Below are positions 60,581-64,000 of a DNA stretch of 64,000 bases, one piece after another. Source of the DNA: Thermoguttaceae bacterium (GTDB taxonomy: Bacteria; Planctomycetota; Planctomycetia; Pirellulales; Thermoguttaceae); assembly GCA_017405595.1 (NCBI GenBank), contig JAFRAC010000007.1, positions 248,001-312,000 of the forward strand, read 5' to 3'. The notes under the pieces were generated by a model. It had not been told where the DNA came from and did no database searches. It saw only the letters and a program-made list of their open reading frames with translations. The position numbers were made by a program, and so were the translations under genes. How positions within the stretch are numbered: position 1 is the stretch's first letter; every line of letters starts with the position of its first letter.

Positions 60581-62482
60581 TTACGCGTTCAGAATCGGCG
60601 CCAAATCGTTTTCGGGGGTCGAGATCACTTTCAGCCCGAACTGTTCGGAAAGGAGGTTCAGCACCTCGGGGGACAGAAACGCCGGAGCGGTAGGACCGAT
60701 ATGAATGTTCCGGACTCCCAGGGAAAGGAGGGAGAGGAGAACCGCGACGGCTTTCTGCTCGTACCAGCTCAGGAAGTACGAGACCGGCAGGCTGTTGATC
60801 TCTTTACCGGTTTCTTCGGAGAGGAATTTCAAAATCCGGATCAGCGACCAGGTGTCGTTGCACTGGCCCGCGTCCCAGAGACGGGGAATCGCGTTAATGA
60901 GCGGCTGGAGCTTGATCGAATTGAAACGGTACTTCCCGCATCCGCAGGTGAGAATGACGCAGTCGCCCGGCACGGCTTCGGCCAGCTGGGTAAAGTAATT
61001 CCGGGATTCCTGAATGCCGTCGCACCCGGCGATGACGAAAAAGTGTTTCAGCTCGCCGCGCGCCAGAGCGCGTTTGATTTTATCCTGGTTCTGGATGACG
61101 GTATCGGCGCCGTAGCCGACGGTCAGCTTTTCGTTTTCGCCGGTTCCGGAATCGAAATAGCCGGAAGAGTCGAACGCGGCCTGAATCACCGGCGAAAAGT
61201 CCTTGCCGCCGTTCTTTTCTTCTTCGATATGCTTGACCCCGGGCCAGTAGGCCGGACCGGTGGTGAAGATGTAGTCGGCGTAGCTTTCGCGCGGTTTCTG
61301 AATGCAGTTTGTCGTCATCAGGATCGCGCCGGGGAACGTGTCAAATTCCTTCTGCTGGTTCTGCCAGGCGGTTCCGAAATGGCCAACCAGATGGGAGAAC
61401 TTTTTCAGGCCCGGATAGGCGTGGGCGGGGAGCATCTCGCCGTGGGTATAGACGTTGACCTCTTTGTTTTTCGTCTGTTCGAGCAGCTGATAAAGGTCCG
61501 AAAGATCGTGCCCTGAGACGAGAATGCACTTTCCGGGCACGGGACTGGTCGAAACCGAGGCCGGACGGGGAACCCCGAACCGGAACTGATGGAGCCGTTC
61601 AAGAAGCTCCATCGCGATCAGGTTCAGTTCGCCGATTTTGAGCGCCGAGGCGAGCAGCGCCGAAGGATCGCTGGTTTCGTCGATCTTCCCGACCTCTTCA
61701 AAGAGACCGTCGAGGAGAAGCGCTTCTTTTTCTTCCCACTCGCCGACCGCCTTTTCGTTCATCTCGACCTCTTTCTGGAGGGCGAGCTTCTTTTCGCGTT
61801 CGTCTTTGTTGCGGCTGCGGATCTCTTTAATGCGGAGCTTGGTCCCCTCGGTCTCGAGACGGATCGCTTCGCGCGCTTCGCAGCCGGCGGTGTAGAAATG
61901 CCACGTGTAGGCGGCGGTGCCCCGCGCGCCGTAGAGAATCAGTTCTTGCAGGCCGACAATGGTTTCCCCGGCTTCGGCGGCACGGGACGCGATCGAAAAT
62001 TCGGCGCCCTGGGCGACAAGTTCGTCGATTTGAGAGGCGATTCCGTCGTCGGAAGTTTCCGCCGACGGGGAATTCGGCTGGCTGATCTGCTGCTCGAAGC
62101 TTTCGGCGTCCTTCCTGAACCGTTCCAGGTCGTCGATGGCGACATCGGAACCGAGGTATTCGGCGAGCTGGAAAATATCGGCGGCCTTCGAGATGAGGCG
62201 CGCGATTTGGCACGGGTCGAAGTTGACGTTTGTCAGCGTGGCATAGAGCGCCTCGAGAAGAAACCGGTCGACAGCGCGGCTCGAGCGGATTTCGCTTTTG
62301 CCGGGACGCTTTTTCTTCGTGGGATACGGTTTTTGGCGGTACGCCGTTCTCTTTTGCGCAATCTGCTTGACCCAGCCGATGAGGAGGTCCTGCAGAGCGG
62401 CGGTTTTAGGATCTTTGCCGCAAATGCCGAACTCGGTGCATCCGGTTCCCCCGGCGGTCTGCTGACATTGATAGCAAAACAT
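60581..62482 (-). CDS. hcp: Hydroxylamine reductase / hybrid-cluster protein with insertions
   Basis: 633 residues, versus about 540-550 for the usual protein. The N-terminal 4Fe cluster has Cys3, Cys6, Cys15 and Cys21. Hybrid-cluster ligands are all identifiable: His and Glu in THGEMLPAHAYP, Cys in TTNCIQKP, IAGCDG, CGCGKYRF and GQCND, and Glu/Lys in WYEQKAVA. Extra length comes from a basic segment (~43-68, RTAYRQKPYPTKKKRPG) and a charged helical segment (~210-265). It reduces hydroxylamine to ammonia or NO to N2O in anaerobes. Electrons may come from a ferredoxin, perhaps that at 48284; no hcr is adjacent. Confidence 0.93.
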   Translation of the reverse strand: MFCYQCQQTAGGTGCTEFGICGKDPKTAALQDLLIGWVKQIAQKRTAYRQKPYPTKKKRPGKSEIRSSRAVDRFLLEALYATLTNVNFDPCQIARLISKAADIFQLAEYLGSDVAIDDLERFRKDAESFEQQISQPNSPSAETSDDGIASQIDELVAQGAEFSIASRAAEAGETIVGLQELILYGARGTAAYTWHFYTAGCEAREAIRLETEGTKLRIKEIRSRNKDEREKKLALQKEVEMNEKAVGEWEEKEALLLDGLFEEVGKIDETSDPSALLASALKIGELNLIAMELLERLHQFRFGVPRPASVSTSPVPGKCILVSGHDLSDLYQLLEQTKNKEVNVYTHGEMLPAHAYPGLKKFSHLVGHFGTAWQNQQKEFDTFPGAILMTTNCIQKPRESYADYIFTTGPAYWPGVKHIEEEKNGGKDFSPVIQAAFDSSGYFDSGTGENEKLTVGYGADTVIQNQDKIKRALARGELKHFFVIAGCDGIQESRNYFTQLAEAVPGDCVILTCGCGKYRFNSIKLQPLINAIPRLWDAGQCNDTWSLIRILKFLSEETGKEINSLPVSYFLSWYEQKAVAVLLSLLSLGVRNIHIGPTAPAFLSPEVLNLLSEQFGLKVISTPENDLAPILNA

Positions 62483-62900: not shown

Positions 62901-63785
62901 ATGGAAAATCTGGCCCGATTCAAAAAGATTCTTCGGACTTCCGTCCCCCTGGCGATGCATACCTGGCTTCAGCTTGGCGGCCAGGTCGAGTATTTTGCCG
63001 AACCCCGTTCCGAAGACGAGCTCATCGATTTGCTCCAGGCCGCCCAAAAAGAGGGGATTGAGCTCCGTTTCCTCGGTACCGGCACGAATGTTCTGGTCTC
63101 CGATTCGGGTGTTCCCGGCATGGTTGTCCGCCTGAGCGCCCCCGAATTCTGCAAAATCGACACCGATCCTGCTTCCGCAACGGTCAGTGTCGGCGCAGGG
63201 GCCAAACTGGGCCGTGTCATCACCAGCGCTGTTTACGGCGGTCTGGCCGGGTTAGAGGGGCTGATCGGCATTCCCGGCACCGTCGGGGGCGCCGTTCATA
63301 ACAACATTTCCACTTCGGACGGCGATATCGCCCAATGGATCGAGTCGGTTCGTGTCGTCCGTCCCGGCGGCGAGGTCGCCGAGTTTGCCGGCGAACATCT
63401 CGATTTTGCCGAAACCGACGATCCGTTTGAAAACGGCATTATCACGGCCTGCCGGTTCCGTCTTCTTCCCGAAGAGGCCGAAGAGCTTTCACGCCGTCTG
63501 CAGAAGATCTGGATTCTCCGCAAAAAAGGTCAGCCGATCGGCTACCAGGGGGCGGGGTGGCTTTTCAAAGATCCTTCCGGAGCGAGCGCTTCGGAACTGA
63601 TCGACGATGCCGGTTTAAAGGGGACGCGTATCGGCGGCGCGGTCATCTGCGACCGCAACCCCAACTTTGTTTTGGTCGAGCCCGAATGTTCCAGCGACGA
63701 TGTCCATCGCCTGATCCGCCTGATTCAGACTCAGGTCCGTGAACGTTCCGGCATCGAACTCGAAACAGACCTGACTTTATGGTAA
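62901..63785 (+). CDS. MurB-like FAD protein lacking catalytic residues
   Basis: 294 residues with the full MurB layout: FAD phosphate loop [12 protein letters not shown] (~58-69), [16 protein letters not shown] (~120-135) and the MurB_C domain. Three catalytic positions differ from UDP-N-acetylenolpyruvoylglucosamine reductase by eye alignment. FGYRxS is FAETDD (169-174), losing the Arg. The proton-donor Ser/Cys of GSxFKNP is Trp220 in GWLFKDP. The C-terminal Glu is Asp290. So FAD binding looks kept but reductase activity is doubtful. No Shine-Dalgarno is clear before ATG 62901. purC follows after 13 bases. A genuine MurB would then be needed elsewhere. Confidence 0.8.
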
Positions 63786-63798
63786 AAGGAAACCTCTC

Positions 63799-64000
63799 AT
63801 GCTTTCCCGAGCGATTTGTACGACGTCGATTCCCGGCATGACCCCGAAAAAAGGGAAAGTGCGCGATGTTTACGATTTCGGCGACACACTCCTCCTGGTC
63901 AGCACCGACCGGCTGAGCGCGTTCGATTTCATCCTGCCGACCGGAATCCCCGACAAGGGAAAAATCCTCAATCAGACCGCCGAATTCTGGTTCGACCGCC
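63799..64000 (+). CDS. purC: Phosphoribosylaminoimidazole-succinocarboxamide synthase, N-terminal part
   Basis: 67 residues are visible before the window ends. [27 protein letters not shown] is the SAICAR synthetase N-terminus (GKVRDVY, STDR.SAFD). It catalyses the ATP-dependent joining of CAIR and aspartate in purine synthesis. AAGGAA precedes ATG 63799. Truncated by the window edge. Confidence 0.93.

Follow-up and report, generated by a model that had tools for sequence, protein, structure and literature searches.

A planctomycete MurB homologue with replaced catalytic residues is probably a flavin-binding pseudoenzyme

Does a MurB homologue whose catalytic residues have been replaced still act as a MurB reductase, or has it been kept for something else? 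The question is raised by an ORF close to the end of the window, that is, the 64,000-nt stretch of a Thermoguttaceae bacterium genome (G000) analysed here. In MurB, NADPH reduces FAD, hydride is passed to the enolpyruvyl group, and protonation is by a Ser or, in type IIb enzymes, a Cys (PMC3689657). The initial annotation had described a MurB-like protein with intact FAD-binding motifs and all three catalytic positions changed, and had proposed a paralogue with another role. The features concerned are as follows.

62901–63785, + strand: murB homologue, 294 aa, catalytic residues replaced (ORF; Pfam, NCBIfam and PDB matches)
63075–63110, + strand: FAD-binding motif, residues 59–70, intact (column conservation)
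63267–63305, + strand: second FAD-binding motif, residues 123–135, intact (column conservation)
63405–63422, + strand: FAETDD, residues 169–174, replacing FxYRxS (E. coli Y158-R159; alignment)
63558–63560, + strand: W220, replacing the Ser/Cys proton donor (E. coli S229; alignment)
63570–63572, + strand: D224, replacing the conserved Asn (E. coli N233; alignment)
63768–63770, + strand: D290, replacing the catalytic C-terminal Glu (E. coli E325; alignment)
63800–64000, + strand: purC (SAICAR synthase), running past the window end; downstream neighbour of murB in the genus (L121:6800-7687)

The ORF has an ATG start and an intact frame, and its membership of the MurB family by homology is given by a two-domain match together with the FAD motifs. 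Both Pfam domains score above cut-off (FAD_binding_4, 87.5 bits; MurB_C, 76.3 bits), the homology to MurB covers the whole protein, and 13 of 14 PDB matches are MurB (best E = 2e-39), the weakest of the 14 being a xylitol oxidase. Another flavoprotein family was rejected because MurB models score far above oxidase models. The NCBIfam murB model TIGR00179 is passed only barely (148.4 bits, cut-off 144.5). A search of PHROGs gave no matches for the product, and an AlphaFold model made from a two-row alignment has a mean pLDDT of 43, too low to be informative. A whole-genome search of G000 (2.67 Mb and 85% complete, so that single absences are weak) recovered this ORF as the sole MurB, and on that ground a second, working MurB in the same genome was rejected. 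Another role, as the initial annotation proposed, is likely, but the protein is not a paralogue as far as this search goes. By descent it is a MurB; judged from its residues, it is very probably a MurB reductase no longer.

In the MurB family, Arg159 and Glu325 (E. coli numbering) have active-site roles. When the window MurB is aligned to E. coli MurB, from which all residue equivalences given here derive, E171-T172 take the place of Y158-R159, so that the Arg of the YR motif is missing. With T172, W220 and D290, none of the Arg, the Ser/Cys and the C-terminal Glu expected of a MurB reductase is present, which agrees with the original reading of the three positions, although the change from E325 to D290 is conservative. 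N253 corresponds to E. coli Q288, in a column that is elsewhere His253. Relatives are altered at the same places: congeners G001 and G006, and a protein 79% identical to the window MurB (L083), have SEGND, R and D at the three sites, while G002 and G005 retain YR but have W and D at the other two. A sequencing error or frameshift as the cause of the replacements can be set aside, since the frame is intact and these congeners come from other assemblies. The nearest characterised likeness is type IIb MurB (Cys donor; Thermus caldophilus, 2GQT), which shares full-length homology, the FAD motifs and the lack of the type I tyrosine loop, and intact relatives of the window MurB in the same order likewise carry Cys at the donor position. 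Unlike type IIb MurB, the window protein has replacements of Tyr-Arg, Cys, Glu and the conserved Asn and His, and the upstream and downstream enzymes were not detected.

The protein matching at 79% identity was the sole match from a scan of genome contigs and belongs to a metagenome-assembled Thermoguttaceae genome from yak duodenum, which suggests that the window genome is a member of a gut genus of this family. In the 85% complete window genome we detected no penicillin-binding transpeptidase, MraY-family protein, MurA, MurC, MurD or MurF; the lone protein of EPSP-synthase fold is AroA, and the only two of Mur-ligase fold are one MurE-like protein and one FolC. Six congeners were searched as well: none has a transpeptidase, each has two Mur ligases, and each has a single EPSP synthase, either full-length or in fragments. 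The search thus covered seven genomes of the genus, and MurA, MurC/D/F and transpeptidase were found in none of them. Four of the congeners have one MraY/WecA-family match each. Peptidoglycan synthesis has apparently been lost in this lineage. Mahajan and co-workers (2020) reportedly found that many of these bacteria have lost peptidoglycan genes. According to a 2025 study of V. spinosum, murA, C, D, F, G, murJ and ftsW have been lost in Pirellulales, Isosphaerales and Gemmatales (PMC12283558). The initial annotation had argued that planctomycetes have peptidoglycan and should therefore possess a working MurB, to be sought as a second murB elsewhere in the genome; neither the pathway nor the second gene was found in G000, and the published losses in Pirellulales run the same way. 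It had also allowed that this might be the only murB and functional. The former holds for the search made here; as to the latter, with no MurA detected the normal MurB substrate would not be made, and neither a MurA to supply substrate nor a MurC to use the product was detected in this 85% complete genome.

The association between MurB residues and peptidoglycan genes was surveyed in 100 planctomycete genomes in which a MurB could be read and a transpeptidase had been looked for, 61 with a transpeptidase (transpeptidase-plus) and 39 without (transpeptidase-minus). Of the 61 transpeptidase-plus genomes, 59 have Arg, Ser/Cys and Glu unaltered, which puts the window protein far beyond chance variation; in the two exceptions, G076 (L032) and G165 (L046), only the active-site Arg is changed, to Asp or Lys. 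At least one of the three residues is changed in 27/39 transpeptidase-minus genomes, all 27 of which fall in the window's order (Fisher p = 6e-13 against the transpeptidase-plus set, treating as independent genomes that are related). Within the order, MurB is changed in 27 genomes and intact in 10 where MurA is absent, and changed in 0 and intact in 19 where it is present (Fisher p = 5e-8, with the same assumption of independence). When the active-site columns are left out of the alignment for the MurB tree, the best topology requires 9 changes to account for the changed state, but only 3 independent changes fall on firmly supported branches, and an independent-pairs test gave the expected direction without significance. 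Outside the order, no catalytic loss was seen in 20 further MurBs from genomes without transpeptidase typing (G075 being unaligned at the YR site). The 12 transpeptidase-minus genomes with an intact triad include G009 and G019, in which MurA is present, and G022 and G031, which have several Mur ligases; these four are probably incomplete genomes of peptidoglycan makers. Four others (G039, G040, G048, G052; 94–99% complete) look like intermediates.

The MurE-like protein of the window genome (496 aa; L119:6476-7966, equivalent to G000:C14:30475-31965) passes TIGR01085 (302 bits). Its P-loop, TGTSGKT, is kept, and TIGR--QS and GGDLA replace DNPR and GKGHE. Those two motifs are not both retained in 30/33 transpeptidase-minus genomes and are both retained in 12/12 transpeptidase-plus genomes (as GRGHE in one), while a recognisable P-loop persists in most genomes. 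Some MurB-bearing genomes, e.g. G025, G027 and G033, gave no match of MurE strength. MurE differs from MurB in fold and reaction, but the resemblance in fate is close: in the same genomes the cofactor-site motif is mostly kept, the substrate motifs are lost and the pathway is gone. Eroded MurE occurs alongside an intact MurB triad in G012, G013, G039, G048 and G058, so that MurE tends to go first. These data bear on whether the window protein could be a working MurB with compensating residues, in a cell that makes peptidoglycan by means of genes that were missed. The score above the TIGR00179 cut-off, the incompleteness of the genome and C250, a residue unusual for its column and common to five aligned congeners, would fit such an enzyme. 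We nevertheless consider it very improbable, given the absence of MurA, MurC/D/F and transpeptidase from every genome of the genus searched, a MurE devoid of DNPR and GKGHE, and the same picture (altered MurB; no MurA, MurC/D/F or transpeptidase) in the complete genomes G030, G041, G042 and G059.

The claim that the FAD-binding motifs are intact was confirmed. Whether or not the MurBs carry the catalytic residues, columns 59, 61, 63, 65 and 70 are conserved to 93% or more, except for column 70 in the transpeptidase-plus set (81%). MurBs changed at one or more of the three catalytic sites (the changed set) keep fold and FAD columns including G26, G27, P35, G59, G61, N63, L65, and P125, G129, G130 and N135 of the second motif. 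Relaxed in this set are columns that elsewhere are A136, G137, Y171, R172, A218, G219, C220, N224, G231, S250, H253 and E290; relaxation at 172, 220 and 290 is circular, as these columns defined the set, and that at the others is independent. The gain in variability is smaller in FAD-motif columns than in other conserved columns (p = 0.0002), and at the unselected active-site columns 171, 224 and 253 relaxation exceeds that of other conserved columns by a narrow margin, a trend only (p = 0.06). The window MurB would be expected to bind FAD. Selection on the FAD motifs and overall fold would also fit an active FAD-dependent oxidoreductase with a non-peptidoglycan substrate, whose active site would have been rebuilt around residues 171, 172, 220 and 290; Arg220, present in 41% of the MurBs of this set, might have gained a function there. 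We regard this as unlikely, however, as the replacements vary by lineage (W, R, Y, L, M, I or Q at 220; D, E, Q, A, G or S at 290) and look like released constraint rather than one new site; moreover, NADPH shares the MurB substrate pocket (PMC3689657), and the reductive half-reaction would probably be affected too.

Within the genus, murB dN/dS is 0.14–0.15 for the window genome against G001 and G006, and 0.07–0.08 in the nearest pairs (G001-G006, G002-G005). The corresponding values for purC are 0.03–0.06, making those of murB two to three times higher; the gene is under selection, less strictly than purC. Distant murB pairs give 0.20–0.29, with silent sites nearly saturated. The higher murB values are one point in favour of a functionless relic in slow decay after the loss of peptidoglycan, as are the drift of the substrate-site residues, the disappearance of the pathway partners, and the failure to detect MurB in G003 (73% complete), G004 (83%) and G036 (92%), so that the gene can perhaps be lost. 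A relic is quite improbable all the same: identity among the MurBs of the genus has fallen to 60–80%, yet dN/dS stays well below 1 and the frame is intact, readable MurB ORFs occur in 39 transpeptidase-minus genomes, and the FAD columns are selectively retained.

We therefore favour, with a probability of roughly two in three, the interpretation that the window MurB is a flavin-binding pseudoenzyme derived from MurB and kept for a non-catalytic, non-reductase role, its features being those of an enzyme homologue that is under selection without its catalytic residues. The points that argue for it are the replacement of the triad together with Asn224 and His253, its status as the sole MurB, the undetected pathway, the recurrence in relatives, the retained FAD columns, the low dN/dS and the erosion of MurE. 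Points that weigh against it are the genomes in which no MurB was detected, the excess of murB dN/dS over that of purC, the marginal relaxation of the unselected active-site columns, the small number of firmly supported losses with a non-significant independent-pairs test, and the incompleteness of the window genome. On this view the gene is the murB orthologue in a gut Thermoguttaceae lineage that has apparently lost peptidoglycan synthesis; freed from UDP-MurNAc production, the protein has shed its residues for binding and protonating the enolpyruvyl substrate, while its FAD-binding scaffold has stayed under purifying selection. Reductase activity would then be gone, and the FAD-bound protein presumably kept in a new structural, regulatory or partner-binding role, without UDP-GlcNAc-enolpyruvate reduction.

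Part of this is already published. Rivas-Marin (2023, PMC10632474), in the part concerned with these genes, describes murB as very conserved in Planctomycetia, if non-essential in P. limnophila, and murE as semi-conserved; the corresponding part of the V. spinosum study (PMC12283558) names murB, mraW and ftsK as the sole dcw genes that the whole superphylum conserves. These are the same gene and the same group as here, retained after the loss of murA, C, D, F and G. In those parts both papers treat it as a conserved murB, without mention of the active-site erosion seen in the window, and its retention comes without explanation there. A search of the open-access literature for MurB and pseudoenzyme returned nothing relevant, which is no proof of absence; the residue-level erosion is possibly new, and the pattern makes a testable claim: with the residues of the reaction gone and the FAD-site motifs kept, something other than the reductase reaction would be what keeps murB in most such lineages. 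In this group, the annotation of murB or murE in a genome cannot serve as evidence for peptidoglycan.

The neighbourhood of the gene offers a lead as to function. Downstream of murB, 24 transpeptidase-minus genomes encode a weakly FtsQ-like protein (e.g. L073:5363-6250; FtsQ_DivIB_C 19.3 bits, cut-off 21), and in many transpeptidase-plus genomes an FtsQ-like gene adjoins murB or lies about 1 kb downstream. The adjacency looks like the ancestral arrangement, its persistence being suggestive only, and a link of MurB to cell division drawn from these sister lineages is only a lead. One could speculate, though we hold it doubtful, that in Pirellulales without peptidoglycan MurB, in many cases together with MurE and its FtsQ-like neighbour, repeatedly became a non-catalytic, cofactor-bound module for FtsZ-less, peptidoglycan-independent budding or envelope assembly; if true, this would explain why murB is among the few dcw genes kept across the superphylum. 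The stretches examined from the window's genus contain no FtsQ-like gene, and purC occupies its place, directly downstream of murB; tRNA genes Leu-GAG and Arg-CCG lie upstream. The window also encodes, at 62482 – 60581 on the minus strand, a hybrid-cluster protein (Prismane family, 445 bits), which fits an anaerobic lifestyle.
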